Source of the DNA: Pelomonas cellulosilytica
GTDB lineage: Bacteria > Pseudomonadota > Gammaproteobacteria > Burkholderiales > Burkholderiaceae_C
NCBI RefSeq assembly: GCF_021353265.1
Contig: NZ_JAJTWU010000007.1
Location: 62,001-126,000, forward strand
DNA length: 64,000 nt
Reading direction: 5' to 3'
The notes beneath the pieces are model-generated. The model did not search any database, was not told the DNA's origin, and saw only the letters and a program-made list of their open reading frames with translations. Both the position numbers and the translations under genes were made by a program. Shown here piece by piece: positions 47,729 through 64,000 of the stretch. Every line of letters starts with the position of its first letter. Positions within the stretch are counted from its first letter, which is position 1.

Positions 47729-48369
47729 ACCCCGCCTCCCTCGAAGTAGACCCGTTCAATGCAGCGCGACATCGCGGTTGCAGGCACGGCATCTCGGCCA
47801 TGCATGACAGCCCAGTTGTCGATCAGTAGTGTGTGTGCCGTCTCGTCGAGCCCCACCGATGTAGCTGTCGTAGCGGCTAGGGTGGTCAGCACTTCGCGAA
47901 CCTGATCGGCTTCCGCGTTCTCGGGCTCTAAGAAAAGCTGATCCCACCTGAAGAGTTGGTCGTCCAGGATTCGTACGAAGAACATGCGCCCCGCCAAGCG
48001 GCGTCGCGGCCGAAATAGCGCGCGCCGGACGATCGCTGGGTTAACCCCCTGCAGGGCGCGCATGTGATGCAAGAGAGGCGTTCGTACGCAGACGCTCCCG
48101 ACGACGCAGCGCAGCATGACGTAGCGTGGTGGCCTGTGCCAGTGCGCCAAGTCGGTGTGCAGCGGCAGTGACTGCAGGCCAAAGTTGCCCCCGTAGGTAT
48201 TCAGCGGACGTTCCTCAGAATGGTGAGGCCGCAGGACGTCTGCCTCAGTGAAGCTGCTGCAGCCTAGCAGCCTGGCGATCTGTTTGGCCGCCTCGGCCGT
48301 GGTCAGGCCGGGAAGAAAAACGCCCAGGTCCACGAAGCCGTCTGTTGCCAACCCGTTGAAGGTGCTCAT
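47725..48369 (-). CDS. TauD/TfdA-like Fe(II)/2-oxoglutarate dioxygenase
   Basis: A 214-residue protein. The HxD part of the metal triad is in LPLHTDLAHWHRPPRYVML and the distal His in LLIDNWAVMHGRDAVP, with an Arg in SRCIERVYF for 2-oxoglutarate. This is the TauD fold. ATG 48369 (MSTFNGLATDG) is chosen; the open frame upstream is unsupported. It is first in a two-gene unit with the zinc-ribbon protein. The substrate is unknown. Confidence 0.72.
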   Translation of the reverse strand: MSTFNGLATDGFVDLGVFLPGLTTAEAAKQIARLLGCSSFTEADVLRPHHSEERPLNTYGGNFGLQSLPLHTDLAHWHRPPRYVMLRCVVGSVCVRTPLLHHMRALQGVNPAIVRRALFRPRRRLAGRMFFVRILDDQLFRWDQLFLEPENAEADQVREVLTTLAATTATSVGLDETAHTLLIDNWAVMHGRDAVPATAMSRCIERVYFEGGGV

Positions 48370-48552
48370 GCGTTGATTTTGCGGCGGCAGGCCTGACCCA
48401 GGGCGGCTTTTCACCATGACCATGCACGCTTTCGAGGCTCGAGGGAAACGGCGCCGGCGCGCCATGCGGTCATAAGGCTCGTCGGGACCTTACGGATGCC
48501 TCTCAGATCGAAGATCGCTTCAAGGTAAGCGTGGGCTCACGGCCATCTTGCA

Positions 48553-48609
48553 GCGCAACGTGAAGATGAGCGGACGCCGAAGGCGGTCCGCTCCAAAGGC
48601 AGGTTAGTC
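48553..48609 (-). repeat. attC site 4 (57 bp)
   Basis: Read on the minus strand, core GACTAAC begins 2 bp after the stop of the membrane-protein cassette gene and GTTGCGC closes it. The stem AGCGGACCGCC with GGCGTCCGCT is like the other attC sites here. The length is identical to sites 2 and 3. Confidence 0.7.
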
Positions 48610-48610
48610 A

Positions 48611-49033
48611 TCACCGAAACCGACGGCGATTAGGTCGAAGATCATTCACAGCTCCCCAAAGACAGAATCCCCCGATGATTGCCGGCAAGGCCAACAGAAG
48701 CCAGAAGAATATTGGCCACTCTATTCTGGAGACTAGTGCAGCGGGAACCGTTCGAGATGGAAAGCCAACTACTCCCGAGCTGTAACCAAGGACTGCTAGC
48801 CACAAAAAGTAGACCCCGAATGAGGCGCCAATCAATGGCGAAGCCACTCGGTCGCCTCGCCAAACTGAAACGAGTGCACAAAGAGACAGCACAGCGAGAA
48901 GAATGACAGTCGGCGACAGCGCTCCTTCATCGAGGTACAGCCACGCCGAAAGGGCGGCAGCGCCCACGGCACCGATCAGCATGACGGAGACTTCCGCCCC
49001 ACGGCTGAGTTTGGTGGATGAAGTTCGGTCCAC
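48611..49033 (-). CDS. Cassette-encoded small membrane protein
   Basis: A 140-residue protein from GTG 49033. Four hydrophobic segments are visible: SVMLIGAVGAAALSAWLYL, TVILLAVLSLCALVSVW, IGASFGVYFLWLAVLGY and FFWLLLALPAIIGGFCLWGA. The C terminus is short and basic. I recognise no family. Its stop is directly followed by attC site 4, so it is an integron cassette gene. Its upstream side is the IS110 junction. Confidence 0.6.
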   Translation of the reverse strand: MDRTSSTKLSRGAEVSVMLIGAVGAAALSAWLYLDEGALSPTVILLAVLSLCALVSVWRGDRVASPLIGASFGVYFLWLAVLGYSSGVVGFPSRTVPAALVSRIEWPIFFWLLLALPAIIGGFCLWGAVNDLRPNRRRFR

Positions 49034-49064
49034 AGTTCGGCGTCCTGGTGATGACTAACGAATG

Positions 49065-50322
49065 AAAGGGACTTCCCCGTCCCGAACCAGCCGCGTTGCG
49101 GCAAACGGCAACCAAGTGCCACGATGGGAAGTGCGATCTCTCATCAACTCATTCGGAAGGGGAAGTCCATGACGATTCTGACCGTGGGTATCGACCTCGC
49201 CAAGAACGTTTTCGCGGTTCATGGCGTCAACGAGGTGGGCAAGGCCGAGTTGATCCGCCCGGCGGTGCCACGCGACAAGCTCCACGAGCTCATTGCCAGC
49301 CTGCCGCCGTGCGTCATCGGCATGGAGGCCTGCTCCGGCGCCCACCACTGGGCACGGCTGTTCCAGGCCTCGGGCCACACCGTGCGCCTGATCGCCCCGA
49401 AGTTCGTCACGCCCTACCGCATGACGGGCAAGCGCGGCAAGAACGACGCGGCCGACGCGGCCGCCATTTGCGAGGCCATCCAGCGCCCGCACATGCGCTT
49501 TGTACCGCTCAAGGACGTCGACCAGCAGTCCTGCCTTATGGTGCATCGCGCCCGCCAGGGGTTCGTCGAGCAGCGCACCGCCACGCTCAACCGCATCCGC
49601 GGCCTGCTCAGCGAGTTCGGCATCGTGCTGCCGCTCAAGGCCGCCACCGTGCGCTGCCGCGCCTGCGAGTGCCTGGAAGACCTGCCCGGCTACGCCAACA
49701 CCGTCATCGGCGACCTGCTCAGCGAAGTCACCCGGCTGGACGAGCGCATCGCGCAGTACGACGCCCACATCCAGGCCATGGCCAAGGACGACGAGCGAGC
49801 CCAGCGGCTGATGCAGCTCGACGGCGTAGGTCCGACCACGGCCACCTGCCTGCTGGCCATGATCGGCAACGGGCACGACTTCGACTGTGGACGCCAGTTC
49901 GCCGCCTGGCTGGGCCTGGCGCCGGGCCAGTACAGCTCGGGTGGCAAGACCCGGCTCGGGCGCATCACCAAGGCCGGCGACGCTTACCTGCGCAACCTGC
50001 TGGTACTCGGTGCCAAGGCGCTGCTAGCGGTGGCCAAGAACAAGACCGACCCCATCAGCCGCTGGGCCGTGGCGCTGGCCGAGCGACGAGGCTACTGGAG
50101 AGCCGCGGTGGCGATTGCAGCCAAGAACGCGCGCATGGCCTGGGCCGTGTTGAGGCGCGGTGAAGCGTTTGCGCTGCCTGCCTGAACTGGCGTCCACTCG
50201 CCACCCATTGAACCCGAAGGAACACAGAACCACCGCCGTGTGACGGCAAACGTTGATGACAACAGGTTTGGACCTGCGCGGGGCGTGACCGATGAGCTCA
50301 AGGGCGGCGCAAGACTTGCCGG
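49065..50322 (+). mobile_element. IS110-family (IS1111-like) insertion in the cassette array
   Basis: A single transposase gene with flanks, bounded by direct repeats CTAACGAATG at 49,055-49,064 and 50,323-50,332. The repeats overlap attC-type cores (GACTAAC, GGCTAAC). IS1111-attC elements are known to insert at such cores. Exact ends are not determined. Confidence 0.7.
49169..50185 (+). CDS. IS110-family transposase
   Basis: A 338-residue DEDD transposase. The N-terminal RuvC-like domain has VGIDLAKNVFAVHG (Asp), CVIGMEACSGAHHW (Glu) and RGKNDAADAAAICEA (Asp-Asp). The C-terminal Tnp_20 domain has LDGVGPTTATCLLAMIGNG and GLAPGQYSSGGKTRLG with the conserved Ser. ATG 49169 follows GGGGA. It runs opposite to the cassettes around it. 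It appears intact. Confidence 0.93.
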   Translation: MTILTVGIDLAKNVFAVHGVNEVGKAELIRPAVPRDKLHELIASLPPCVIGMEACSGAHHWARLFQASGHTVRLIAPKFVTPYRMTGKRGKNDAADAAAICEAIQRPHMRFVPLKDVDQQSCLMVHRARQGFVEQRTATLNRIRGLLSEFGIVLPLKAATVRCRACECLEDLPGYANTVIGDLLSEVTRLDERIAQYDAHIQAMAKDDERAQRLMQLDGVGPTTATCLLAMIGNGHDFDCGRQFAAWLGLAPGQYSSGGKTRLGRITKAGDAYLRNLLVLGAKALLAVAKNKTDPISRWAVALAERRGYWRAAVAIAAKNARMAWAVLRRGEAFALPA

Positions 50323-50332
50323 CTAACGAATG

Positions 50333-50583
50333 GGTCCCCCGCGTGCGTCCTTCATCAGGGTCCGTGGCATCGAGTGCCACACGAATGACCGTTTGTAGTT
50401 TGGCCAGTCCGCACCTTGTTGTCCTTGTCAGCGCCTACCGACGCCACGGCTGCAGGTCTTGAGGGAAATGCAGATGAACAAATGGCCCGCAGAGCGGTCC
50501 ATCGGATTCGTTTCGTTTGACTACCGGGGAAGCCCTTGTAGTAAAAGCTCAGCGGGCGGCGAAGCCGTCCGCTGGAGCGAAGG
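50333..50583 (-). other. Degraded cassette remainder between IS110 and attC site 1
   Basis: No credible gene. A GTGGCA-TCGAG-TGCCAC hairpin sits at about 50,364-50,380 and might be the stem of a differently built attC whose R' core was hit by the IS. Confidence 0.35.
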
Positions 50584-50590
50584 GTTGGAC
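50534..50590 (-). repeat. attC site 1, partly decayed
   Basis: Minus strand: core GTCCAAC (fits RYYYAAC), then the same stem as attC site 2 (AGCGGACGGC with GCCGCCCGCT). The expected GTTRRRY core at 50,534-50,540 is missing (TACAAGG). Confidence 0.6.
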
Positions 50591-50615
50591 AGCTCGAGTA
50601 CGGGCCATTATCGAT

Positions 50616-51044
50616 TCATGCCAGATAGCTGGCCGAGAACGTAACCGCGACCTTGCTCCCGGCCCTCAGCAAGCGGTTATTGCCAAAGCATTGATCGCCA
50701 GAAGAAGCTTCGTCGAACTTTCGTTCATCCCCAAAGTAGATCATCAGGACACCGTGTTTCGAATCTGCTTCTGCGCCCGAGAAGCTCCCCGTCAAGAGGA
50801 GTGAGTTCGGATCGTCAACCCACTGCCTGACGCCAAGAACCTGACCTTCTTGGTTTCTGAGCCAGTCGTAGAAGCCCTGCCAATCGCCTGTTCCGGTGTC
50901 TGTAAACGCGACGCCACCCAGAAGCAACGTCGTCGCAACTTGATCTTCCTCTGATAGTTCAACGAGCTGAGGTCTCTGGTCCGGCGAAATGACGACGACC
51001 ACGACAGATCCCGGTGGAACGCTCTTCACGGGCGTGCTGTTCAA
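50616..51044 (-). CDS. Cassette-encoded protein of unknown function
   Basis: A 142-residue protein, no signal peptide or membrane helix; a mix of strands and helices (GSVVVVVISPDQRPQLVELS, WQGFYDWLRNQEGQVLGVRQ, HGVLMIYFGDERKFDE). The longest frame starts with TTG inside the attC core GTTGAAC; a GTG five codons later is an alternative. Both ends are framed by attC sites, so it is an integron cassette. The family is not recognised. Confidence 0.6.
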   Translation of the reverse strand: MNSTPVKSVPPGSVVVVVISPDQRPQLVELSEEDQVATTLLLGGVAFTDTGTGDWQGFYDWLRNQEGQVLGVRQWVDDPNSLLLTGSFSGAEADSKHGVLMIYFGDERKFDEASSGDQCFGNNRLLRAGSKVAVTFSASYLA

Positions 51045-51095
51045 CGATAAAGCTCAGCGGGCGGCGTAGCCGTCCGCTGCAGCGACGGGTTGAAC
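51039..51095 (-). repeat. attC site 2 (57 bp), complete
   Basis: Minus strand: GTTCAAC (RYYYAAC) to GTTGAAC (GTTRRRY), with stem AGCGGACGGC/GCCGCCCGCT and a small loop. This is the best-formed site. Confidence 0.85.
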
Positions 51096-51117
51096 CACAG
51101 CGGGCCTGCAGTAGTGC

Positions 51118-51486
51118 TCATTGGATGCGGTACTTCTCACCGCAGTGAATGCAGATGAGCCTGCGACGACGGATGACATTGATGACCACGCCACCCCAGC
51201 CTGAAAGGCGAGATTGGCCTACTGACTCCGAGTGGGGCGGCGTGAAGCCTTGGATGGTGGGATGCTTCCCACAAGCCGGACACTTGTGGCGGAAGCTCAG
51301 GACCAAATGAGCCACGGCCGCAACCGCAAAGAGCGCAAAGTTGATTGGCAGTAGCACTTCGTTGGCGGGACGAAGCCACATGTGGGCAAGCCAGTTGACG
51401 CCAAGAAGTAACAAGAAAGCCCACGCGACTACTACTGCCCGTGCGTCGGCGAGCGCAATTGGCGACCTCGGATAAATGGGCGGCAT
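51118..51486 (-). CDS. Cassette-encoded membrane protein with a zinc ribbon
   Basis: A 122-residue protein from ATG 51486. Two membrane helices (AVVVAWAFLLLLGVNWLAHM and FALFAVAAVAHLVLSF) are followed by a cytoplasmic zinc-ribbon-like part with HKCPACGKHP and LICIHCGEKYRIQ. Cys-pair proteins of this sort are frequent cassette products of unknown role. attC site 2 follows 22 bp after its stop and attC site 3 precedes it. Confidence 0.65.
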   Translation of the reverse strand: MPPIYPRSPIALADARAVVVAWAFLLLLGVNWLAHMWLRPANEVLLPINFALFAVAAVAHLVLSFRHKCPACGKHPTIQGFTPPHSESVGQSRLSGWGGVVINVIRRRRLICIHCGEKYRIQ

Positions 51487-51502
51487 GGCGCGGTCTTCTG
51501 TG

Positions 51503-51559
51503 GTTCAACGTCGAAGTTCAGCGGGCGCCGAAGGCGTCCGCTGGAATGACCGGTTATGC
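51503..51559 (-). repeat. attC site 3 (57 bp), complete
   Basis: Minus strand: GCATAAC to GTTGAAC with stem AGCGGACGCC/GGCGCCCGCT. It belongs to the first cassette after attI. Confidence 0.8.
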
Positions 51560-51930
51560 CGAGCCTCGGCACTCGAAGCCACGGCGATGGTGGCAGCGCG
51601 ATGCCGCCGAAGCTGTAGTCCGCCGAGGGCTGAGGCGAGCAGGCCTGGTGGACTAGCCGGAAGCGCAATGCAGCGCGGAGTCCAGGTCCGGGCGCCGCCT
51701 AGGCGGCACAACGCCACGCGCTCACCCGACCGCGCGGAACCCTCGGCCGCCGACGCGACGACGCCGCCGCGGAAGCAAGGCATAACGCCGGTGATGGAGT
51801 TCAACCTAGCCTGCTGCATAACGTGTTCTCGGGAGACAGCTAACGCCGCCTAGGCAGACGAGTTGCGCTCTAGATCGGCAACCTGGATCTCCGGCAAGCC
51901 GTTGACGTGCCATCAGTTTCTCCCATTTGA
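51560..51930. other. attI side of the integron and first, probably non-coding, cassette
   Basis: A GTTATGC core (minus strand, 51,816-51,822) is the best candidate for the attI/cassette join. The stretch from there to attC site 3 is a short first cassette; its 104-codon frame has an Arg/Ala-rich composition like a shadow ORF, and I do not call it. Confidence 0.45.
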
Positions 51931-51946
51931 CTGTACGTTTATACAG
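51931..51946 (+). promoter_or_regulatory. LexA box of the integron integrase
   Basis: CTGTACGTTTATACAG fits CTG-N10-CAG and lies about 70 bp before the intI start. SOS control of intI genes by LexA is established for several integrons. Confidence 0.88.
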
Positions 51947-52019
51947 CATTAAATTTCCGGCAAAAGCGGCACACCGACAACCACCTCGCCGAGGGGAGAT
52001 GGCCGCCTGGGGAGCGCCC

Positions 52020-53066
52020 ATGATGCCAGTTGTGCCGCCCGTTGCGGCCCCTCGCAAATACCTGCGCCCGCGGTCCAGTCCGGACCTGCCGCCACTGCGC
52101 GCGACCCGGGTGCTGGACCAGTTGCGAGAACGCCTGCGGCTGATGCACTACAGCCCGCGGACCGAGGAGACCTACGTCTACTGGGTGAGGGCCTTCATCC
52201 GCTTTCACCGATTACGGCACCCTGGCGAGATGGGTGGGCCGGAGGTTGAAGCGTTCTTGACGCACTTGGCAAACGACCGGTCGGTCGCACCGTCGACGCA
52301 CAGCCAAGCCCTGTCGGCGCTGCTGTTCTTCTACACCAAGGTGCTGCGCCATGACTTGCCCTGGCTGCAGGAGATCGGCCACCCGCAGCGCCACCGGCGC
52401 CTGCCCGTCGTCCTCAGCGTTGATGAGGTGCGCTTCCTGCTCGCCGGGCTTCAAGGCGAGCATCGGCTGCTGGCCCGTTTGCTCTATGGCACAGGCCTTC
52501 GAATCAGCGAGGCCCTGCAACTGCGGGTTAAGGACCTGGACTTCGCGCAGCGGGCGCTGATCGTGCGCGAGGGCAAGGGAGCCAAGGATCGCGTCGTGAT
52601 GCTGCCGCACTCGCTGGTGCCTGAACTGCGGCACCAACTTGGGAGCGCTCGGCTGGTGTGGGCGGCCGATGTCGAGGCCGGCACGGCGGGCGTCGAGATG
52701 CCCCACGCATTGGAGCGCAAGTACCCACGCGCCGGCCAGTCTTGGCCATGGTTCTGGGTGTTCCCGCAAGATCACCATTCCACCGATCCGCGAAGCGGTG
52801 TCGTCCGCCGTCACCATCTTTACGACCAGACCTTCCAACGCGCCTTCAAGCGTGCGGTGCACGCTGCCGGCATCGCCAAGCCCGCGACTCCGCACACGCT
52901 GCGTCACTGCTTTGCAACTCATCTGCTGCAGTCGGGCAGCGACATCCGGACTGTGCAGGAGCTTCTCGGGCATGCGGATGTGGCTACGACCATGATCTAC
53001 ACGCACGTTCTCAAGCTCGGCGGTGGCGCCGTACGGAGCCCGCTGGATTCGCTTGCGGAGGGCTGA
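52020..53066 (+). CDS. intI: Integron integrase IntI
   Basis: A 348-residue tyrosine recombinase. Catalytic residues are Arg in [19 protein letters not shown], His/Arg in [16 protein letters not shown], His in [19 protein letters not shown] and the Tyr in that last segment. The IntI-specific insert that tells it from XerC/D is present: [20 protein letters not shown]. It recombines attC with attI. I take ATG 52020, with GGAG at good spacing; ATG 51999 is the alternative. It is divergent from the cassettes, the usual integron layout. Confidence 0.93.
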
Positions 53067-53131
53067 TCCGACCCAAAGCAGGTACTGCCAATCACCCTGA
53101 CACGTTGCCGACGGGGCTCACAGTGGCCCCG

Positions 53132-54754
53132 TCAGGCCGCGTGCCGTAGCGCCTTCAGCGCGGCGATCGACCACGGCAGCAGCTCGTCGATGCGGTTCAC
53201 CGGATGGTCGGCGATGCATTGCAGCACCTCGCGCAAGTAGGCCTCGGGGTCGAGCCCGTTGAGCTTGGCGGTCTCGATCAAGCTGTACATCGACGCTGCC
53301 CGTTCCCCGCCGGCGTTCGAGCCCATGAAGAGGTAGTTGCTACGCCCGAGCGCGACCCCACGCAGTGCCCGCTCGGCCGCCGAGTTGTCGATCTCGATGC
53401 GACCATCATCCACGTAGCGGGTCAATGCGTTCCAGCGCGCCAGGCTATACCGGGCCGCCTTGGCCAGCTCCGACTTCGTCGATACCTGGGTGAGCACCCC
53501 CTGCAACCAGCGATGAAAGGCCTCGAGCAGGGGCCCCGCCCGCGCCTGTCGCTGCTGGCGTCGCACGTCGGGTGGGCTGCCGCGGATCTCCGCTTCAATC
53601 GCATACACCCCTTGGATGTGGCGCAGTGCCTGTGCCGCCAGGCCGGTGTCGTCACGGTGCTGCTCGTACAGATCCCACCACGGTCTTCGTGCGTGCGCCC
53701 AACAGGCCGCTTCGACCACGTGGCCTGTGTCGTACAGCGCGTTCCAGCCGCCGTAGGCATCGGCTTGCAGGATGCCGCGGAAGTCGCGCAGGTGGCGCTG
53801 CGGGTGCTCGCCCTTGCGGTCGGCCGAGTAACGGAACCAGACGGCGGGCGGGGCGCTGTCACCTGCGGGCCGGTCGTCGCGCACATAGACCCACAGCCGC
53901 CCGGTGCGCGTCTTGCCTTCGCCTGGCGCGAGCACCTTGACTGGCGTGTCGTCGGCGTGCACCTTGGCGCCATGCAGCACGTGCCGGCCCAGCGCGGCGA
54001 CGAGAGGGTCGAACAGGCTGTGAGCCTGCTCGATCCAGCCGGCCATCGTGCTGGGGTCGATCTCGACGCCTTCTCTGGCGTAGACCCGGCTCTGGCGGTG
54101 CAGAGGGGCGTGGTCGCAATACTTCGATACCGTCACGTGGGCCAGCAGTGCTGGACCCGCAAGACCTCGTGCGATCGGCCGGCTCGGGGCGCTGGCTTGG
54201 AAGATGGCCTCGCACTTCGTGCATGCCAGCTTGGGTCTCACGGTGCGGATGACCTTAAAGCGCGCCGGCACGTACTCCAGGTGCTCCGAGACGTCGGCGC
54301 CGATGCTGCGCAGCCGGCCGCCGCAAGCGGTACAGCCGCAGGATTGCCCCGCGGCGTCGTGGTGCGCTGCAGTGGTGGCGGGGCGAATCTCCTGCTGTTC
54401 GCGAGGCAGATGAGCAGGCAGGCTGCGGTCGACGCTGCCGTCATTGGCCGCCGGTGTTGCCGGCTTGCGTACGGGCAATTCCTCCAACACCACCGGCTCG
54501 ATGAGACTGGCCTGCAGATCGAATCGCTCACTGGAGACACCGAACTGCGCGCGCACGCGGCGAGCCAACTGCAGCTTAAGCTTGTCGACCAACAGCTTGA
54601 GCCGCTGCACTTCGCTGGCGCTGGCGCGAAGTTGCTGCTTCAGCAACTGCGCGTCGTCGGGCAGTTGGCTGATCGGGTCGATGTCCTGCGGCACGAAGCT
54701 CAGTGTGCGACGAGGGCAGCGAGCCTGCATCGGGATCACTCCCGAGATGCTCAC
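53132..54754 (-). CDS. tnpC: IS66-family transposase TnpC, element 1
   Basis: A 540-residue DDE transposase. It has an N-terminal Leu-zipper-like helix (LKQQLRASASEVQRLKLLVD), a zinc-ribbon region (CGCTACGGRLRSIGADVSEH), then catalytic VHADDTPVKVLAPG (Asp), FRGILQADAYGGWNALYDTG (Asp) and RIEIDNSAAERALRGVALGR (Glu). The GTG at 54754 follows the tnpB stop directly; MQARC at 54730 is an alternative start. Confidence 0.92.
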   Translation of the reverse strand: MSISGVIPMQARCPRRTLSFVPQDIDPISQLPDDAQLLKQQLRASASEVQRLKLLVDKLKLQLARRVRAQFGVSSERFDLQASLIEPVVLEELPVRKPATPAANDGSVDRSLPAHLPREQQEIRPATTAAHHDAAGQSCGCTACGGRLRSIGADVSEHLEYVPARFKVIRTVRPKLACTKCEAIFQASAPSRPIARGLAGPALLAHVTVSKYCDHAPLHRQSRVYAREGVEIDPSTMAGWIEQAHSLFDPLVAALGRHVLHGAKVHADDTPVKVLAPGEGKTRTGRLWVYVRDDRPAGDSAPPAVWFRYSADRKGEHPQRHLRDFRGILQADAYGGWNALYDTGHVVEAACWAHARRPWWDLYEQHRDDTGLAAQALRHIQGVYAIEAEIRGSPPDVRRQQRQARAGPLLEAFHRWLQGVLTQVSTKSELAKAARYSLARWNALTRYVDDGRIEIDNSAAERALRGVALGRSNYLFMGSNAGGERAASMYSLIETAKLNGLDPEAYLREVLQCIADHPVNRIDELLPWSIAALKALRHAA

Positions 54755-55102
54755 CTATGCGGCCAACTGAGGGGATTGCGTCCGAGTTGGCATGCGCCAG
54801 TCGATGCCTTCGAGCAGCATCGAGAGTTGGGCTGCAGACAGGGTGATACGGCCGTCGGCGGCCTGTGGCCAGACGAAGCGGCCCCGCTCCAGGCGCTTGG
54901 CCAGCAGCATCAATCCCTGGCCGTCGAACCACAGCACTTTGATGATGTCGCCGCGCCGACCGCGGAAGACGAACACGTGGCCATCGAACGGGTTCTCGGC
55001 CAGGGCCGTCTGCACCACAGCGGCCAAGCCATCGAAGCCCTTCCTCATGTCGGTGTGGCCAGCGACAAGCCACACGCGAGTACCCGACGGCAGGCCAATC
55101 AT
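54755..55102 (-). CDS. tnpB: IS66 accessory protein TnpB, element 1
   Basis: A 115-residue IS66 Orf2 protein. MIGLPSGTRVWLVAGHTDMR, FVFRGRRGDIIKVLWFDGQG and LAKRLERGRFVWPQ are all typical. The ATG at 55102 overlaps the tnpA stop (ATGA); the longer frame upstream is tnpA in another frame. Confidence 0.93.
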   Translation of the reverse strand: MIGLPSGTRVWLVAGHTDMRKGFDGLAAVVQTALAENPFDGHVFVFRGRRGDIIKVLWFDGQGLMLLAKRLERGRFVWPQAADGRITLSAAQLSMLLEGIDWRMPTRTQSPQLAA

Positions 55103-55572
55103 GCAACGCAGCGCAGTGCAGCAAGCACCGCGACAAGGCTCTCTTGGTCGACCGTGCCACGCAGTCGAAGCCGCGCACCGGCGAAGTCCAGTTCGATGCT
55201 GCCTGCGTTGGCGCGGGCTGCGCACGACGACGGCACGGAATGTGAGGCCTGCGTCATGCCGTCCGATGTGGCCGGCGCGAGTGTGATCGGCAGGAGTGCT
55301 GGCGCTGACGCTGGTGCGGGTTCAAGGCTGGCGGCCACGGCAGCGCGATGTTCGCGGCGCCATTTGAACACCAGGTTGGCGTTGATCCCGTGGGCCATCG
55401 CGATGCTGGACACTGACGCGCCGGGCAGCAGACATTGCCGGACCAGCTCGCGCTTGAGTTCGGGGCTGTGGTCGCGCCTGCGGCGGCTGGAGGGTAGGCG
55501 TCCGGCAAAGTCATCTTGAACCGGCTGTCGCTTGCGACAAGGATGCTGTCCACGTAACTTAGGTGGACGCAT
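55099..55572 (-). CDS. tnpA: IS66 protein TnpA, element 1
   Basis: An HTH protein with SPELKRELVRQCLLPGASVS and IAMAHGINANLVFKWRREHR, the IS66 Orf1 pattern, and a C-terminal domain ending in LDFAGARLRLRGTVD. No good start is seen near the domain. ATG 55572 gives 157 residues but overlaps the start of element 2, so the 5' end may be damaged by the second insertion. Confidence 0.7.
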   Translation of the reverse strand: MRPPKLRGQHPCRKRQPVQDDFAGRLPSSRRRRDHSPELKRELVRQCLLPGASVSSIAMAHGINANLVFKWRREHRAAVAASLEPAPASAPALLPITLAPATSDGMTQASHSVPSSCAARANAGSIELDFAGARLRLRGTVDQESLVAVLAALRCVA

Positions 55573-55918
55573 GACAAGCGACAAGAAGACACGGCGGCGA
55601 TACAGCGAGACAAAGAAGGCGCAGGTGCTGGCCGAATGCAGCGAGCCCGGCGCGTCAGTGGCCAAGGTAGCGATGGCCCATGGCATCAATGCCAACGTCG
55701 TTCACCGCTGGAGGCAGCTGTCTCAGGGCCAGGCTCCTGCCGAACTCGCTAAGGCAAGGGAGTTCATCGCGCTCCCGCTTCCCGCGCCGGCAGAGTCCGC
55801 TGCGGTGGTGCCTGATGTCCGAGTCGAACTCAGGCGCGGGCCGGTCTCGATCATGGTCACCTGGCCGGTCAGCGCAGCGGCAGAGCTTGCCGCGTGGACT
55901 CGCGAGCTGCTGCGGTGA
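55571..55918 (+). CDS. tnpA: IS66 protein TnpA, element 2
   Basis: A 115-residue HTH protein (RRRYSETKKAQVLAECSEPG, VAMAHGINANVVHRWRQLS). ATG 55571 (MTSDKKTRRRY). It overlaps tnpB by GTGA. It is of the same type as TnpA of element 1 but diverged. Confidence 0.9.
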   Translation: MTSDKKTRRRYSETKKAQVLAECSEPGASVAKVAMAHGINANVVHRWRQLSQGQAPAELAKAREFIALPLPAPAESAAVVPDVRVELRRGPVSIMVTWPVSAAAELAAWTRELLR

Positions 55919-56247
55919 TCCGCGTTGACGCCGTGTGGCTGGCGGTCGAGCCGCTGGACATGCGAGCCGGCACCGAGGCCGCGCTGGCTCGCGTGGTCAA
56001 CGTGTTCGGCGCCGCCAGGCCCCACCATGCCTACCTCTTTGCCAACCGTCGCGCCAACCGCATGAAGGTTCTCGTGCATGACGGCATCGGCGTGTGGCTC
56101 GCTGCTCGCCGGCTCAACAGCGGCCGGTTCTCCTGGCCCAGGGATGTCGGCGGCACCCTGACGCTGACGACGGAGCAACTCAACGCACTCGTCCTCGGTC
56201 TGCCGTGGCAGCGTCTGGGTGACGCCGGCGTCATCACCCTGCTGTAG
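55915..56247 (+). CDS. tnpB: IS66 accessory protein TnpB, element 2
   Basis: A 110-residue IS66 Orf2 protein from GTG 55915: IRVDAVWLAVEPLDMRAGTE, AYLFANRRANRMKVLVHDGI and ARRLNSGRFSWP. Coupled to tnpA. Confidence 0.9.
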   Translation: MIRVDAVWLAVEPLDMRAGTEAALARVVNVFGAARPHHAYLFANRRANRMKVLVHDGIGVWLAARRLNSGRFSWPRDVGGTLTLTTEQLNALVLGLPWQRLGDAGVITLL

Positions 56248-56289
56248 CCAGCAATTGCGACATCCACCGATGGCGCGTGAGCGCTGTCA

Positions 56290-57855
56290 TTGGCACGATT
56301 AATCCCCGTGATCGCTGACCACGCCATCGACAGTCTTGACGCCAACCAGCTGCGGGAAGTCGTGGGCGCACTGCGCGCCGAGTTGGTGCGCAAGGACAAG
56401 GCGCTGCTGTTCAAGCAGACCCTCGTCGACAAGCTCACGCACGAGAACGCGGTCCTCAAGCGACTGAAGTTCGCCGCGCAGAGCGAGGCCTACACATCCG
56501 AGCAGAAGAGCCTGCTCGACGAGACGTTCGACATGGACCTGGCGGCGGTGGCGCGCGAGATCGAGAACGCCCAGCCCAAGAAGCCCGACGGCGAGAAGCG
56601 CCAGCCCAAGCGGGCTCCGCTGCCAGCCCACCTGCCGCGCCACGACGTGCATCACGAGCCGGCCAGCACGACGTGCAAGTGCGGCTGCACGATGAAGCGC
56701 ATCGGCGAGGACGTCAGCGAGAAGCTGGACTACACCCCCGGTATCTTCACGGTCGAGCGCCACGTCCGGGGCAAATGGGTCTGTGCCGAGTGCGAGACGC
56801 TGGTGCAGGCGCCGATGGACCCGCACATCATCGACAAGGGCATCCCGACGACACGGCTGCTCGCGCAGGTGCTGGTGGCCAAGTACCTCGACCACCTCCC
56901 GCTGTACCGGCAGGAAGCCATCTTCGAGCGCGCTGGCATGGCCATCGCGCGCTCAACCCTCGCGCAGTGGGTCGGCGAGTGCGGGGTGCAGCTGCAGCCG
57001 CTCGTGGACGCGCTGACGGCAGAGCTGTTGAAGGCCCCGGTGCTGCACGCCGACGAGACACCCGTCCCGATGCTCAAGCCTGGCAAAGGCAAGACGCACC
57101 GGGCCTACATGTGGAGCTGGTGCACGACACAGTTCCATGACATCAGAGCGGTGGTCTTCAACTTCGCGGAGACCCGTGGTGGCCAGAACGCAAGGGACTT
57201 CCTGCAGCTCGGCACCAGCGCCAGCTGGAAGGGCAGCCTGGTCGTCGACGACTTCAGTGGCTACAAGCAGTGCTTCGACATGGGCGTGACCGAGGCGGGT
57301 TGCATGGCGCACGCACGACGCAAGTTCCACGAGCTCTGGGTCAACCACCAGAGCAAGGTCGGCGAGCAGGCGCTGAAGTTCTTCCAGGCGCTGTACGACG
57401 TCGAGCGCGACGCAGCCGGGCTGGGCATCGAGGACCGACGGGCCCTTCGACTCGAGAGAGCCAAGCCCGTAGCCGACGCGCTCAAGCAGTGGCTCGACGA
57501 GCACCGCCAGAAAGTGCCAGGCGGCTCAGCGACCGCCAAGGCTCTCGACTACAGCCGACGACGCTGGGAAGCGCTAACGCGTTACCTGGGCGACGGACGC
57601 CTGCCAATTGATAACAACTGGGTAGAAAACCAAATCCGCCCAATTGCTCTCGGAAGAGCGAACTGGCTCTTCGCCGGCAGCCTGCGCGCCGGCAAGCGGG
57701 CCGCGGCCATCATGAGCCTGCTGCACTCCGCGCGCATCAACGGGCACGACCCATATGCGTATCTGCGCGACGTCCTGGAGCGTCTGCCGCTGCAGCCAGC
57801 CAGCCGGATCGACGAGCTCCTGCCGCACCGCTGGCATGCTCCCCATCAAGACTAG
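56290..57855 (+). CDS. tnpC: IS66-family transposase TnpC, element 2
   Basis: A 521-residue DDE transposase. Zinc-binding CKCGCTMKRIGEDVSEKLDY and WVCAECETLVQAP precede the catalytic VLHADETPVPMLKPG (Asp), LVVDDFSGYKQCFDMG (Asp) and LPIDNNWVENQIRPIALGR (Glu). The start is TTG 56290 or GTG 56308. Apparently intact. Confidence 0.92.
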   Translation: MARLIPVIADHAIDSLDANQLREVVGALRAELVRKDKALLFKQTLVDKLTHENAVLKRLKFAAQSEAYTSEQKSLLDETFDMDLAAVAREIENAQPKKPDGEKRQPKRAPLPAHLPRHDVHHEPASTTCKCGCTMKRIGEDVSEKLDYTPGIFTVERHVRGKWVCAECETLVQAPMDPHIIDKGIPTTRLLAQVLVAKYLDHLPLYRQEAIFERAGMAIARSTLAQWVGECGVQLQPLVDALTAELLKAPVLHADETPVPMLKPGKGKTHRAYMWSWCTTQFHDIRAVVFNFAETRGGQNARDFLQLGTSASWKGSLVVDDFSGYKQCFDMGVTEAGCMAHARRKFHELWVNHQSKVGEQALKFFQALYDVERDAAGLGIEDRRALRLERAKPVADALKQWLDEHRQKVPGGSATAKALDYSRRRWEALTRYLGDGRLPIDNNWVENQIRPIALGRANWLFAGSLRAGKRAAAIMSLLHSARINGHDPYAYLRDVLERLPLQPASRIDELLPHRWHAPHQD

Positions 57856-57881
57856 AAATCGCCGAGTACCGGCTTCATGCA

Positions 57882-58154
57882 ATGCGAGAGCAATCCGTTG
57901 AAATCTACTCAGACACCACGAATGCCGCAGTCGTGCGGCATCCCGGGCGTCAATTCCCAGGCGTATTGATCCAGGGAGACACCTTGAATGGGCTGGTCCG
58001 CGAACTCAATCGAGTACACACCGACGTTCTATCGCTGAACACCGAAGTTGCCGATGAGCTTGCGTACATCCGCGACCAGCTGCAATCGCTGCTCGATCAC
58101 TATGAGGCGACGCTCTCAGCACACAACATCGAGCCCCCGTACAGCAAGAGCTGA
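57882..58154 (+). CDS. Small protein, DUF6959-like
   Basis: A 90-residue protein. SVEIYSDTTNAAVVRHPGRQ then FPGVLIQGDTLNGLVRELNR resembles the DUF6959 family, and a C-terminal helix (ELAYIRDQLQSLLDHYEATL) follows. The role is unknown. It lies between IS66 element 2 and the antiphage genes. The ATG at 57882 has a weak RBS. Confidence 0.6.
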   Translation: MREQSVEIYSDTTNAAVVRHPGRQFPGVLIQGDTLNGLVRELNRVHTDVLSLNTEVADELAYIRDQLQSLLDHYEATLSAHNIEPPYSKS

Positions 58155-58349
58155 GACGACCTCTAGGCTGGACGTCAAGGTGACTTGGCCGTCCGCCTAC
58201 GCTGGAGGGCGTGTGTTGATCGGCCATGGTGTGCGTTAGCGATGCCTGATGCACACCATCGCAGGTGCGCAGGATCAGCCGATCTTGGTCAGGACGCCGC
58301 TGGCGCGCCAGAGGGCCGTGAGGCCACGCTTACGCTTCAAGCGCCGAAT

Positions 58350-61300
58350 TCACATGAACAGACGATAGTCGTACGACCGGTCTGCGTACCTATCCAGAAG
58401 GGCGCCAATCCTGGCGACTCGCCTCGACGTTTCTATGGTGGCCGGGAGCTGCCCATAGAGATCGAAGCTGTTGAAATTCATCTTCGAGAGCCCAAGGATT
58501 TCCGCCGCCAGCGTCATGAGGTCGCTTGTCCCAGCATGCCGAGTCAGCACAAGCGGCGCAGGAATTCGGCGCTTTCCTTGGTAGTACGTGCGATTGGCTT
58601 TGAGCGCGGTGGAGGCACCATGCGCCCACAACAGCGCCGTAGCATCGTCCACCACGACGGTAGTCCCTCGGTGGATCGGGTACCCGTGGATCTCCAGATC
58701 ACCCTTCCTATTTGCGCGCGACGCCACATACCGAAGCGTGTCGTCGATGTGGATCTGCAGAAGCTCCACGCACCCAATTCCTTCCAAGCCGGCCTGCAAC
58801 CCCTGGCGTTCCTGCTTCAAGAACGGCGTTTGCTTATGCACCACGACACGTTTCGGTAGCCTAAGGTTGGCTTCGAAAAACAGCTCCCGGATGCCCTCGC
58901 CGAGACGCCGCGCGTCGTCGAAGCTCATGAAGGGGTTCTTCCTGCGCATGATCGGGTTCTCGATCTTGCTCAGCCGAAACTGCAGTCCAAGTCCGTTTGG
59001 ACTGTAGAGGTGGCTGCAACCCAGGATCACATTCCCATCCTCGCCGGGCCGATTGCGCAGGCTATAGCCGACGCCGACATATGCAGAGTCCTTATCGAGG
59101 CCGTCCAGCGCCCAGGGACTCCTCATCGCCTTTGCATAGGTGGCGAGCGAGAGCCACCAACGCACCCGGCACTGCTGCTCGTGCCTGAGCGTGTCCTCCT
59201 CTAGGAATTGAGTGGCGACGCCCTGCGGAATCGCCGAGGCCTTTACGAAGTCATGCAGGTCGAACGTCTCACCATCGACGTCATAGCCTCTGATGGCGGC
59301 CCATCTGGCAGGGACATAAATGAAGATGACGCTGGGGTTCGCGGCCGCCTTAAGCGACGAAATGGCCGCAGAAATCCTCGCACCCAGTTCTCGTGCGGAC
59401 GCAGGCGTCAAATCGACCGGCTCATCGAGACCAACGAACCCTCTGCCACCAGGCTGCGTCACCTCCAGCCCGCACTTGAATGCTGTACTGAAGCCAGGGA
59501 ACGGGAGCAAGTAGTCTTCGTCCGAGCGTGTCGGATCGACTGACTCGTGCAGCTTGTTCAGATACTCGCAAACCCGCCGCCCATCCTTGGAGGGTGCGAT
59601 CAGGGCGACGCGGATGTTTGTGGCTATGCCGGTGTCGGTCAATAGCGCGTCGAAGGGCCGATCTCTCATCAAGCCGCGAATCGGATGGGTATCGAAGGCA
59701 GACCCGCTGCCCGTTTTTGGCAAGAAGGACAGCCGCGGCTCAGCGATCTGCAGGCCGACTTGAGAGGCAAGGCGCTCGTTCTTGTCGCTCAACTTCACGG
59801 AGGCTTCCCGCTCGTCGGTGATCTTTGCGAACAAGGGCCAAGCGGAAACTGAAAACTTCACGCCCTCGTCCACATCAGGGAAACGAAGCGCCGTTTCACG
59901 CTGAGGAAGTAGCTTCTTGCGCCAAAAATCGAGCGCTTCGTTGAACTCGGCGTTGTGCTGATAGCCAAGGACCTTGACCTTTACCGCGTTGGCCACCATG
60001 CGGGGCGCCTCGCTGCCGGAGGCATCGGCAACAAAAAGGGTCGGCTTCAAAACAAGCGCTAAGGAGCCACTCACAGTCTTGACCTGCAAGATGACCGCCT
60101 TGTAGGCGATCCAGTCACGCCCTTCCACGCGCTGCTTGCTTCCGCCGCTGGGCTCCCAAATCAGACCATCGTGATCGCAAGGAAGGCCGGCTTTAGCGGC
60201 TAGCGCCAAAGCAGTCGCTCGTCTCATCAAGCTATTGGAAGTGCCGTCTTCGTAGCGCAGGTCCTCGTCATTGAGCGGTACCCGCTTGATCTCGCTGGAG
60301 ATGTTTCCGGCGAAGGCCTTTTGGATCTGCTCAGGCGCAGCGATTGCGTATACCTTGCCCCGGAATGGAGCTGCGACGAACCCATGCTTCTCACCTGTGG
60401 ATTTCAGCTCTGTCCAGACCGTTCCTGGAGCGGGCCATTTGATCAGATCGAACTCAAGAAGTTCGCCTGGTGGCTGCATCGGAAAAGCGTTGCTCTTGAT
60501 GAGGCCGCTCACCGGTAGATTCGGCAAGGAAAATGCCGCGCGCTGTGTCGTGGGCGACTCTTTGAACTTGTCCAGTATGGCGTCGAGCCTTTTGCGATCA
60601 TCAGATCGTGTTACGTGCAACGCAATCCTGCGCATCAGGTCGTCGAAGGTGACGCCGGGCACTATGAAGCGCTGGGGCTCAACACCCGCGGGCGTCTCCA
60701 GCAGGTTCGCCACGTCACCGGACGCCGGAGAGTCACCGTACTGCGTCCAAAACAGCGGTAGCCTTTGTTGCTTGGGGTCTTGATAGGCCTCCAAGAATGC
60801 AGCCATCACGCTTGCGTCTCGACCGCTGTACCCACACACAAGTACGGGATGTGATCTCAACAAAGGAATCAGTGCCGCACGCAGTTCCGCTTCTTGCTCT
60901 GCTAGCTCTCTCTGCGTGTTCTTAAGAGGGTCGTACCGGTAGTCTCCGTGCATCGCAACACACTGGAGCTCATCCAAAGCCATCGGGCGAGTGGCGCGTT
61001 CTTTTGAGTCCTGGCCAATCTCGATTGCGGTTACGCCGCTCGCCGCCGCTGCTCGGGCGACAAGACCATCGAAATTTGTAGTCCAAACTGAACTCACCAG
61101 TCGGCGCCTGGCTAGTTCCGCCAGCAGTTGATAGCCAAGGCCTGGATCTGCCGACTTCACCCAGTCTTGAAAATATCTGCGCCGGTCGTCACCACGTGCG
61201 TAGCAGGCTTCGATAAACACCGAGTATTCGTCTGCCGCGCCCTCTTTAGGAAATCGACGCTGAGAATCTAGCCAACTCTGAATTCGCTGCCTAACGGATG

Positions 61301-61517
61301 GCAATGACAGCTCTTCAAACTGACGCTCAAGCCCAGGGTTGTTTGTGAGGAAGATGGAGCGCTTCCACTCCCAGATGCACTGGGTTGCGGATGGCATCCC
61401 CGAGCTCATGGAAGCGCCAGCCCCCAAAAACACTAGCAGCGGCTGGTCCCTCGACATTCCTATCGAACGCACCAGCGCGTCCAATGACAGCGTACGGATC
61501 AAGCTCAGGTCCTCCAC
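58350..61517 (-). CDS. Single-chain SIR2-APAZ-PIWI argonaute (short-pAgo defense protein, fused type)
   Basis: A 1055-residue protein. The N-terminal SIR2 domain (about 1-300) has the NAD-binding FLGAGAS (30-36), VWTTNFDGL (Asn148), MHGD (His190) and VLVCGYSGRD (226-234). A middle region (about 330-650) fits an APAZ domain. The C terminus (about 700-1055) is a PIWI domain: YVGVGYSLRN, RVVVHKQTPFLKQERQGLQA, TTVVVDDATALLWAHG and the final SYDYRLFM. The first catalytic Asp of PIWI is replaced in YVGVGYSL, so slicing is unlikely. By family precedent (SPARSA), guide-target recognition of invading DNA triggers NAD depletion. The start is a GTG. Confidence 0.85.
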   Translation of the reverse strand: MEDLSLIRTLSLDALVRSIGMSRDQPLLVFLGAGASMSSGMPSATQCIWEWKRSIFLTNNPGLERQFEELSLPSVRQRIQSWLDSQRRFPKEGAADEYSVFIEACYARGDDRRRYFQDWVKSADPGLGYQLLAELARRRLVSSVWTTNFDGLVARAAAASGVTAIEIGQDSKERATRPMALDELQCVAMHGDYRYDPLKNTQRELAEQEAELRAALIPLLRSHPVLVCGYSGRDASVMAAFLEAYQDPKQQRLPLFWTQYGDSPASGDVANLLETPAGVEPQRFIVPGVTFDDLMRRIALHVTRSDDRKRLDAILDKFKESPTTQRAAFSLPNLPVSGLIKSNAFPMQPPGELLEFDLIKWPAPGTVWTELKSTGEKHGFVAAPFRGKVYAIAAPEQIQKAFAGNISSEIKRVPLNDEDLRYEDGTSNSLMRRATALALAAKAGLPCDHDGLIWEPSGGSKQRVEGRDWIAYKAVILQVKTVSGSLALVLKPTLFVADASGSEAPRMVANAVKVKVLGYQHNAEFNEALDFWRKKLLPQRETALRFPDVDEGVKFSVSAWPLFAKITDEREASVKLSDKNERLASQVGLQIAEPRLSFLPKTGSGSAFDTHPIRGLMRDRPFDALLTDTGIATNIRVALIAPSKDGRRVCEYLNKLHESVDPTRSDEDYLLPFPGFSTAFKCGLEVTQPGGRGFVGLDEPVDLTPASARELGARISAAISSLKAAANPSVIFIYVPARWAAIRGYDVDGETFDLHDFVKASAIPQGVATQFLEEDTLRHEQQCRVRWWLSLATYAKAMRSPWALDGLDKDSAYVGVGYSLRNRPGEDGNVILGCSHLYSPNGLGLQFRLSKIENPIMRRKNPFMSFDDARRLGEGIRELFFEANLRLPKRVVVHKQTPFLKQERQGLQAGLEGIGCVELLQIHIDDTLRYVASRANRKGDLEIHGYPIHRGTTVVVDDATALLWAHGASTALKANRTYYQGKRRIPAPLVLTRHAGTSDLMTLAAEILGLSKMNFNSFDLYGQLPATIETSRRVARIGALLDRYADRSYDYRLFM

Positions 61518-61621
61518 TCCGTGTTGTACCTCTTGCGGGCACTAAATCAGGTTGGCCATTTCGCCTTGGGATACTCAGAAGCGGTTCCCTTGTCGTCGTC
61601 CACCGCCATAGTAGCCGCGCG

Positions 61622-62467
61622 CTATGGGTATGGAGTCAGAGCAGAAACTGCTATGACCGCGTCCAGCAGGCGGCACACCTTGGCCGCCGCCGCGCCCCTG
61701 ACGTGGAAGCCCAGCTCCAGCGAGTATGCAAAGCTCCACCTGGTCATGTTTGAGGACCCGGCATAGCACTCCGAGTCATCGACCCGAACGACCTTTGCGT
61801 GGAACGTCTCGTTCTCCGGCCTATCCGGTCTTGGGATGCGGAAATCGTAGACAGCCACACCTAGCGCCTTGAGTTCACCAGCCTTGCTGGCAAGAGCGGC
61901 GGGGAGCCCGTCGCGGACCACAAGTTCCCGTGCCACTCCGGGGCGCGTCGCCTGAAACAAGCTGACGATGCGCTCCGCGCCATCCTCGTCGACGAAGGGC
62001 GTCATGACCGAGAAGCGCCGCGTGGCGTTGGCGGCCATTTGGCCCAGCATCACTGCAGTCTCTTCAAGGCCCCAAACGCCTTCGATGGTGCGCTCCAGCT
62101 CTGCGACCAGTCGGCTTGGCGCGGCTGGACGCGAGATGACGACTTCCACCTCGTTGGCGTCAGAATGGACCCTGTCTCGGTAGAGGCGTGCCCCTCGCAT
62201 CAGCGAGGCAACTTCGCGGGCCATCCCTTGGGATAAAGCTACGGCCCACATGCCGTGAGAGTCCTTGCTCACGACCCCCGCGTCTTCGGCAGCCTGCAGC
62301 GCGGTCAGAACCGCGGGAAGCCGCGAGCTGCTAATTCCGCAGATCCGCGCGAGCTCTCGAGCGCCGTGCGTTCCGGGCAGCTTGCCCGCCCCTGCCCAGC
62401 TGAGCGCAGGCTCGAGCACCTCGGCATGAGTCGCGAGTCGGACGAAGAGGTCGTCAGCTTGCTGCAC
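61622..62467 (-). CDS. drmC: DISARM protein DrmC (phospholipase D-like)
   Basis: A 281-residue protein. The PLD signature HxK-x4-D-x6-GSxN appears once: FHAKVVRVDDSECYAGSSNM. The N-terminal part has a winged-helix-like segment (RELARICGISSSRLPAVLTA). The GTG at 62467 has AAGGTG 7 bases upstream and overlaps the drmB stop by 14 bp; a longer frame to 62560 is antisense-style overlap. In DISARM, DrmC accompanies DrmA and DrmB. 104 bp separate it from the argonaute gene on the same strand. Confidence 0.82.
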   Translation of the reverse strand: MQQADDLFVRLATHAEVLEPALSWAGAGKLPGTHGARELARICGISSSRLPAVLTALQAAEDAGVVSKDSHGMWAVALSQGMAREVASLMRGARLYRDRVHSDANEVEVVISRPAAPSRLVAELERTIEGVWGLEETAVMLGQMAANATRRFSVMTPFVDEDGAERIVSLFQATRPGVARELVVRDGLPAALASKAGELKALGVAVYDFRIPRPDRPENETFHAKVVRVDDSECYAGSSNMTRWSFAYSLELGFHVRGAAAAKVCRLLDAVIAVSALTPYP

Positions 62468-64000
62468 CGGATGACACCTTGGCCGTCGTGATGTCCAGAT
62501 AGCCGGTGATGCGCTTGCCTTGCTGCCGGCCCTCATCTTCCCGAGGAGCGAGGCCACCACGAAGCGCCGAGCGCGACATCAGGCGGTTTGCAGCAACACA
62601 GGAAGTCTCCGGAATGACGATGCAACTCGGGCATGCGCCGCCGTCGGCGTCGCACAAGCTGCCCGAGCCGCACATCAGGGTTCTTGGCTCCAATAGGTAC
62701 TCGAGAAAGACCGTGTTGTAGTTGCGCCAGAGCGCCGACAGGTTGCCCAGGTCCATCGTCGTTCCGTTGCGGTAGACCACGAACGCCAAGTCTGCCGGGA
62801 ACAGGTACTCCCCTAGGCTGCCCATATCGAGCCCCGAAAACTCTGCGACCGCCTTCATCAGGGTGTGCGCGTAGGTATGCAGCAGCGTGTAGACATAGCG
62901 GTAGGTGTTGGCCGGTCCGGGCTTCAGGTCCGCGAAGTACTTTCCGAACGGAGCCGCGCTCTCCAAGACGTGAGCCCCGAGCTTTAAGTCACCCGCCGGG
63001 TCCCACTCGGGCAGGTCGGTCACGCCGACAGCGCGCAGCCACTCGTAGACGAGCTCGGGGTTGAGGCGTGCGTAGATTGCCTCGTTGGCCTGGGTGACGA
63101 CGTAGATCGGGATCTTGCCGTTTCCCAGCGGCTGGAACAGGTTCAGTCGAACCGGAAGCATGAGCTGCTGTTGATCGCTCTTCTCAATGAGCGGGTCGGT
63201 CGACACGCGCGTGAAGCCGTGCGTGAAGCGGCACAAATCAAACTCGCGGATGAGGCCCATCTCGGCGAGACCCATGGCAGACATCAACCGGGTTGTAGTC
63301 GCCTTCTGCGCGTCCAGCTCCGCCTTCGTTCTGGGGGCAAGGTCACGGTCAGGCTCTGTAAAGCGCACGAACGGAGACCGCCCGTCGGCCACGCTCAGCT
63401 TGGTGAGCTTGCTGCGACGCAAGGCCTCGTGCTCGACGGCGAGCACGAGCGGGTCATAGCGACTTCCGAACTCGGCGCGCCGGTCAATCTGTCCCGTCAG
63501 CCAGGGCGGCGGCTCGTGCTTGACGGGGATGAGGCCCGGCGTGGCCTTCCAGTCGTCGATCATGACCCGCATCTGCTTTGTCGGCATTTCGGCCATCGAT
63601 GTGCCGGCCAACGTCTTGAGCATGTGTTCCATGCTCTCGTAGAGCTGCACCTTCGCCACCTCTCCGGCCTTGCGCATCATCTCGACGATCTCAGCGTCCG
63701 ACGGCGGTTTGACGCCGAGGCCATAACGCTCTGAAGCAAACCCCGCCAGGTCAGCCTCGTTACCCTCCTGCAGCATCAGCAGCAAGTCGCGCTCGCCTGC
63801 TGAAAACACGATGAATTGCTCGCTGTGAGGGTAGAAGGCCGGTGTGGCTCTGTATGAAATCGGCTCCATGCGCCGCCAGCGCGGCGGGCGCTGCAAGCAC
63901 TCGTCACCCAGCAGCTGCGTGGTTTCAGGGTCGTTTTGCAGCCAACTGTCCCCTTCCTTGTGCCCGTTCTCGCACTCGAAGACCCACTCACCGATGCGAG
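62454..64000 (-). CDS. drmB: DISARM protein DrmB (DUF1998), 5' end outside window
   Basis: The frame is open to the window edge: codons before 63896 read GEWVFECENGHKEGDSWLQN and onward, so the gene starts beyond base 64,000. The DUF1998 region is clear: LLHTYAHTLMKAVAEFSGLD, MGSLGEYLFPADLAFVVYRN, CGSGSLCDADGGACPSCIVI and PETSCVAANRLMSRSALRGG, giving a Cys-rich zinc site. DrmB forms a complex with the helicase DrmA in DISARM antiphage defense. drmA is expected just outside the window. Confidence 0.82.
   Translation of the reverse strand, partial: RIGEWVFECENGHKEGDSWLQNDPETTQLLGDECLQRPPRWRRMEPISYRATPAFYPHSEQFIVFSAGERDLLLMLQEGNEADLAGFASERYGLGVKPPSDAEIVEMMRKAGEVAKVQLYESMEHMLKTLAGTSMAEMPTKQMRVMIDDWKATPGLIPVKHEPPPWLTGQIDRRAEFGSRYDPLVLAVEHEALRRSKLTKLSVADGRSPFVRFTEPDRDLAPRTKAELDAQKATTTRLMSAMGLAEMGLIREFDLCRFTHGFTRVSTDPLIEKSDQQQLMLPVRLNLFQPLGNGKIPIYVVTQANEAIYARLNPELVYEWLRAVGVTDLPEWDPAGDLKLGAHVLESAAPFGKYFADLKPGPANTYRYVYTLLHTYAHTLMKAVAEFSGLDMGSLGEYLFPADLAFVVYRNGTTMDLGNLSALWRNYNTVFLEYLLEPRTLMCGSGSLCDADGGACPSCIVIPETSCVAANRLMSRSALRGGLAPREDEGRQQGKRITGYLDITTAKVSSGAAS

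Follow-up and report, generated by a model that had tools for sequence, protein, structure and literature searches.

What does the long open reading frame close to one end of a 64,000-nucleotide stretch of Pelomonas cellulosilytica DNA (the whole of which is called the window below) encode, and does its product belong to the defence operon that adjoins it? The frame (61517-58350, minus strand) is intact and comprises 1055 codons; translation may start either at the GTG at 61517 or at a codon a few positions further in. As judged from the sequences compared, full-length homologues and the third-position bias of the codon differences (see below) exclude a chance ORF. The gene and its predicted parts are the following.

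58350..61517, minus strand: fused SIR2-APAZ-MID-PIWI short Argonaute (pAgo) of the S1A type, 1055 aa, GTG start
60612..61451, minus strand: SIR2 NADase domain, about residues 23-302 (limits estimated), from Pfam SIR2_2 and a SPARSA SIR2-APAZ match that begins at residue 23
61074..61076, minus strand: codon of Asn148, the predicted catalytic Asn of SIR2 (equivalent of N142 of GsSPARSA), invariant in 13/13
60948..60950, minus strand: codon of His190 in the HGD loop, the predicted catalytic His of SIR2 (equivalent of H186 of GsSPARSA), invariant in 13/13
59754..60530, minus strand: APAZ (N-L1-L2-like) region, about residues 330-588 (limits estimated), from a profile match and Foldseek
58353..59753, minus strand: MID-PIWI part, residues 589-1055, from a SPARSA Ago-chain match and alignments with short pAgos and TtAgo

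The sole domain that Pfam recognises in the 1055-aa protein is SIR2_2 (residues 143-267, E 6e-10); neither a Piwi domain nor a PAZ was found by Pfam at E 0.1, the PAZ result coming from the same search that also missed Piwi. The PADLOC fused pAgo model PDLC02384 matches residues 9-1055 with 1234 bits, and the model Aga_SIR2-PNTD1-PNTD2 (PDLC02420) matches the same residues with 648 bits. When the PDB was searched with the sequence and with a profile built from 13 homologues, the Ago chain of SPARSA (8in8 C) was matched by residues 606-1055 (E 3e-52 and E 5e-69, respectively) and the SPARSA SIR2-APAZ chain by residues 23-405 (E 2e-28 and E 2e-47), the latter profile match extending through the APAZ region to profile position 444. 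No PDB chain spanning both halves was among the matches up to E 1 in either search. SIR2, APAZ and MID-PIWI are carried by one polypeptide encoded by a single ORF, which thus departs from the two-gene S1B layout. A reading of the sequence made before this analysis (the sequence-only reading) had placed NADase, APAZ-like and PIWI parts in one 1055-residue chain, and the PADLOC models, the PDB chains and Foldseek all agree with it.

An AlphaFold2 model generated from a 13-sequence alignment is of moderate quality (mean pLDDT 72.2, pTM 0.53; residues 1014-1055 with pLDDT < 50). In a Foldseek comparison of the model with the PDB, the top two places go to SPARSA SIR2-APAZ chains (21% identity over 599 and 613 aligned columns); the long pAgo RsAgo comes third (804 columns), and Ago chains of SPARSA and SPARDA follow. 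In the aligned parts the protein shares only 21-26% identity with the SPARSA chains, with an rmsd of 6.5-10.4 Å, and the query-normalised TM-scores are 0.30-0.34 for these chains and 0.30-0.45 across the first Foldseek hits. The APAZ/PIWI fold, whose lack would have told against the sequence-only reading, is found in this moderate-quality model.

According to the available parts of PMC12205087, SIR2-APAZ-pAgo fusions constitute the S1A clade and two-gene operons constitute S1B; the available text of PMC11156904 agrees that S1A is the fused clade, and that of PMC10810196 mentions NADase effectors that are sometimes joined to pAgo in one protein. The single chain had been taken for an unusual kind and compared to “S1B-type fused pAgos”. 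By the available text of the first two sources, both points need correction: the fusion is the recognised clade S1A, and the labels were swapped, fused proteins being S1A and operon-encoded ones S1B (PMC12205087, PMC11156904). S1A is already an established class and the gene therefore adds a member to a known kind. In a FastTree phylogeny of 24 MID-PIWI sequences, the 13 fused proteins are separated from 11 S1B and S2 sequences with a split support of 1.000; the clade names in this tree follow the available parts of PMC12205087 and PMC11156904, no published S1A reference is knowingly included and the Geobacter sequence is absent. Two-gene S1B-type pAgos in the tree, including one from contig C24 of the same genome (31% identity), stand apart from the fused ones. 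On the sequence comparisons, the gene is genuine, conserved and open throughout, and encodes an S1A short Argonaute of a kind known already.

Two further short-pAgo systems are extant in the genome of the window. Contig C24 carries a SIR2-APAZ and pAgo pair of the S1B type, the two genes overlapping by 4 bp (L024 7810-11267), while contig C12 carries a REase-TIR-APAZ protein (PADLOC PDLC02416, 408 bits) together with a pAgo (L025 9891-13291).

Among the known systems, SPARSA (S1B) from Geobacter sulfurreducens, a SIR2-APAZ/Ago heterodimer (PDB codes: 8in8, 8jkz, 8k87, 8y7z), is homologous to the window protein in both halves, has the same Asn-His dyad and a PIWI described as inactive; however, SPARSA consists of two proteins and the window pAgo of one. 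The homologue from Paraburkholderia graminis C4D1M (L012), an S1A protein, is likewise one chain with the same domain order and an architecture like that of the window protein, but there the adjacent drmB-like gene is truncated and runs towards the pAgo gene. A fused Sir2-Ago of P. graminis, possibly the L012 protein, was reportedly tested by Zaremba et al. in 2022 (Nature Microbiology), and a literature search under the likely names of the protein found no further paper on it. SPARTA (S2A) and SPARDA (S2B) also combine an APAZ plus MID-PIWI sensor with an attached effector, and their Ago chains match by Foldseek; their effector is a TIR or a nuclease, whereas that of the window protein is SIR2 (PMC12205087, in its available parts).

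A scan of genome contigs yielded 15 loci, 12 of which have full-length fused genes without internal stops; at L018 the frame is broken, and two of the loci, L013 and L022, represent separate pieces of a single Paraburkholderia oxyphila genome. Identity to the window protein ranges from 86% (Comamonas sp. MAG, L008) down to 39% (Pseudoduganella), the P. graminis C4D1M homologue sharing 63% over the aligned length, and one further fused homologue (67% identity) was found on an IMG/VR contig. Comparison of the window gene with its 86%-identical relative gave a dN of 0.084 and a dS of 1.385 (dN/dS 0.06), and the codon differences fall mainly on the third position (132/59/486 at positions 1/2/3), which demonstrates, at the level of codons, purifying selection on the fused pAgo gene. 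In the Comamonas MAG a PD-Lambda-1 gene (L008 7873-9315; PADLOC, 440 bits) adjoins the fused pAgo.

Fused S1A pAgos look rare. The only full-length match among 60 related genomes is the window's own, and the same holds for the fused form in the 399 genomes of the order searched with the fused model at E 1e-20 (1/399), while in three other genomes of the order (G159, G313, and G422) the two halves are matched separately. None of the 103 matching plasmid records or the four matching phage records has a single stretch that covers 80% of the query. The match of the short phage record MT837260 to positions 10-620 of the query stops within 30 bases of the record end, and possibly a fused gene is cut off there.

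The setting of the gene is less ordinary than the fused gene itself. Its neighbours in the window include the following.

61622..62560, minus strand: PLD-like DrmC-like gene (PF13091; PADLOC DrmC; below the cut-off of NCBIfam DISARM_DrmC_I)
62454..64000, minus strand: DrmB-like gene running past the window edge, 747 aa in all (PADLOC DrmB on the part in the window)
57882..58154, plus strand: gene of a DUF6959 protein (PF22281), on the 3' side of the pAgo gene and convergent with it

Ahead of the pAgo gene and on the same strand lie genes for a methyltransferase, a 952-aa protein, and DrmA-like (1398 aa), DrmB-like and DrmC-like (312 aa) proteins, which together occupy 61622-64000 of the window and positions 1-9540 of L023. 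PADLOC matches drmA, drmB and drmC alike, while in NCBIfam DrmA (325 bits, cut-off 950) and DrmC (45 bits, cut-off 133) both score below the cut-offs, DrmB being outside this comparison; because of these two scores we call the operon DISARM-like and divergent. Class 1 DISARM is defined by drmD and drmMI, class 2 by drmE and drmMII. Where drmD or drmE would be expected stands the 952-aa gene, which had no PADLOC, Pfam or NCBIfam match at the limits used. A 25%-identical counterpart of its product is encoded in a Thauera operon (L010).

The pAgo gene begins 104 bases after the end of drmC, on the same strand, and no sigma-70-like promoter was matched in 57700-63000, a scan that is weak evidence; 1.2 matches are expected by chance. 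This arrangement invites the reading that the fused Argonaute is a functional part of the DISARM-like operon, for example a suicide back-up that acts once DISARM restriction fails, which we regard as quite improbable. DISARM-like genes or remnants adjoin 5 of 16 S1A loci and none of 12 S1B/S2 loci (Fisher p = 0.053; counting the close relatives L011 and L012 as one locus raises it to 0.106), and the linkage is suggestive but not significant. The 16 S1A loci are the window, those of the 14 genomes of the contig scan (L013 and L022 taken as one genome) and L026, and the flanks are short in L009, L012, L013/L022, L016, L018, L019, and L026; of the controls, L024 and L041-L047 belong to the two-gene SIR2 type, and L025 and L048-L050 represent other short pAgos. 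Only the DISARM-like proteins encoded at the window, L010 and L011 served as probes, and a different DISARM variant at a control locus would therefore escape. DrmA is present in 18 of the 399 genomes of the order, and the binomial value obtained with this rate (0.0038, for 4/15 at 18/399) sets a neighbourhood against a whole-genome rate with the finding locus included, and is a guide only. When 189 neighbour proteins (ORFs of at least 110 aa at L008-L022 and seven beside the window gene) were compared all against all, no family was common to all S1A loci, and the only families in three or more loci were DrmB (window, L010, L011, and L012) and DrmA (window, L010, and L011).

However, order and strand vary from locus to locus. 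In Thauera a similar operon stands beside the fused gene and points away from it, the pAgo gene being divergent from that of the methyltransferase; in P. gardini (L011) DrmB and DrmA, and in P. graminis (L012) a DrmB fragment, are convergent to the fused gene. In L012 (4355-7976) drmB is shorter than in L011, and the adjoining gene pair resembles, by eye, istA/istB of the IS21 type. The end of the fused pAgo gene of a Gallionella MAG is directly followed by what is left of a drmB 3' part (L017 13137-13310; 50% identity over 60 residues). The other 11 of the 16 loci have no DISARM-like gene within their available flanks; as the arrangement varies as well, a fixed partnership is not established. 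Furthermore, defence genes cluster generally, and other S1A genes are adjoined by PD-Lambda-1 (L008) and PDC-S28 (L020). A broader version, that S1A Argonautes are recurrent partners of DISARM and travel with a divergent DISARM-like operon encoding the unmatched 952-aa protein, possibly as its guided suicide back-up, and that only a drmB stump is left in some lineages, appears unlikely on the same loci.

The DUF6959 protein was considered as a partner of the pAgo and set aside, tblastn having found no match to it in the available DNA of the other S1A loci. IS66-type transposase genes lie in 53132-57855, between an integron and the pAgo gene; 56290-57855 is confirmed by Pfam and 53132-54754 is similar by eye. 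The integron (50530-53066 of the window) has an integrase gene (51927-53066, plus strand) that scores above the NCBIfam integron-integrase cut-off, attC-like hairpins on the minus strand (near 51509, at 51095-51045 and near 50590) and two possible cassette ORFs (51118-51486 and 50616-51044). An Rfam scan of 48000-64000 gave no match at gathering score. The claim that the gene is carried by an island finds loose support: the pAgo gene does lie between IS66 elements and the DISARM-like operon, but ARAGORN found no tRNA gene, the only type of boundary examined, in the 64-kb window.

Whether the fused protein could work as a SIR2 effector governed by an inactive Argonaute depends on its active-site residues. 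In GsSPARSA, alanine at either N142 or H186 stops NAD+ loss, according to the available text of PMC10781750. The equivalent dyad, Asn148 and His190, had been singled out by the sequence-only reading, and both residues, together with the GAG and GYSGRD motifs, are unchanged in all 13 aligned proteins, that of the window included. In the MID part, H755-K759-Q770-K796, which we take to be the signature for the 5'-phosphate of the guide, does not vary among the 13 S1A sequences and is found as H/R-K-Q-K in 11/11 other aligned short pAgos. The catalytic positions of TtAgo are D478, E512, D546, and D660, the residues themselves being confirmed in the TtAgo sequence. A MAFFT alignment to TtAgo bridged by 24 short pAgos makes G817, Q896 and R1032 the counterparts of D478, D546 and D660, identically in two runs, while the position of E512 shifts between the two alignments, leaving the tetrad glutamate without a stable placement. 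All 13 S1A sequences are non-acidic at columns 817, 896 and 1032; three of the 11 non-S1A ones have D or E at column 1032, where the alignment is looser. An hhalign profile alignment with TtAgo gave no meaningful hit. Because G817, Q896 and R1032 sit at catalytic positions of TtAgo, the PIWI slicer is very probably inactive, and the dead PIWI suspected earlier holds for three of the four tetrad positions. That guided cleavage by PIWI silences or degrades invaders with SIR2 as an accessory, although the guide-phosphate signature of MID is intact, is largely ruled out by the non-acidic tetrad residues and is hardly credible. Comparison of the sequences thus demonstrates the predicted domain content, its conservation under purifying selection, the presence of the SIR2 catalytic residues and the absence of those of PIWI.

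We propose, with considerable confidence, that the gene encodes a single-chain SPARSA-type (S1A) short Argonaute, a guide-directed, cleavage-dead sensor that would trigger SIR2-mediated NAD+ loss against plasmids or phages. The MID-PIWI part would carry a 5'-phosphorylated guide (RNA in the studied relatives), which would pair with the DNA of an invader, a plasmid or a phage. This target would not be cut by PIWI; guide-target pairing would instead be sensed via its inactive site, and APAZ would relay the signal to the SIR2 domain, joined covalently in the same chain. SIR2 would then open and hydrolyse NAD+, and the infected cell would die or stop growing before the invader spreads. The guide type, the activation step, the NAD+ loss and the abortive infection are extrapolated from two-protein SPARSA, and by this homology NAD-depleting abortive infection is the best-supported predicted function. 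No guide-making gene was recognised beside the pAgo gene by inspection without a dedicated search.

Should a larger set of loci bear out the link between S1A genes and DISARM, this would suggest a layered defence that begins with restriction and falls back on cell death. The conserved protein, in which NADase and sensor are naturally tethered, may itself be a convenient object for studying the effect of tethering on activation and oligomerisation.
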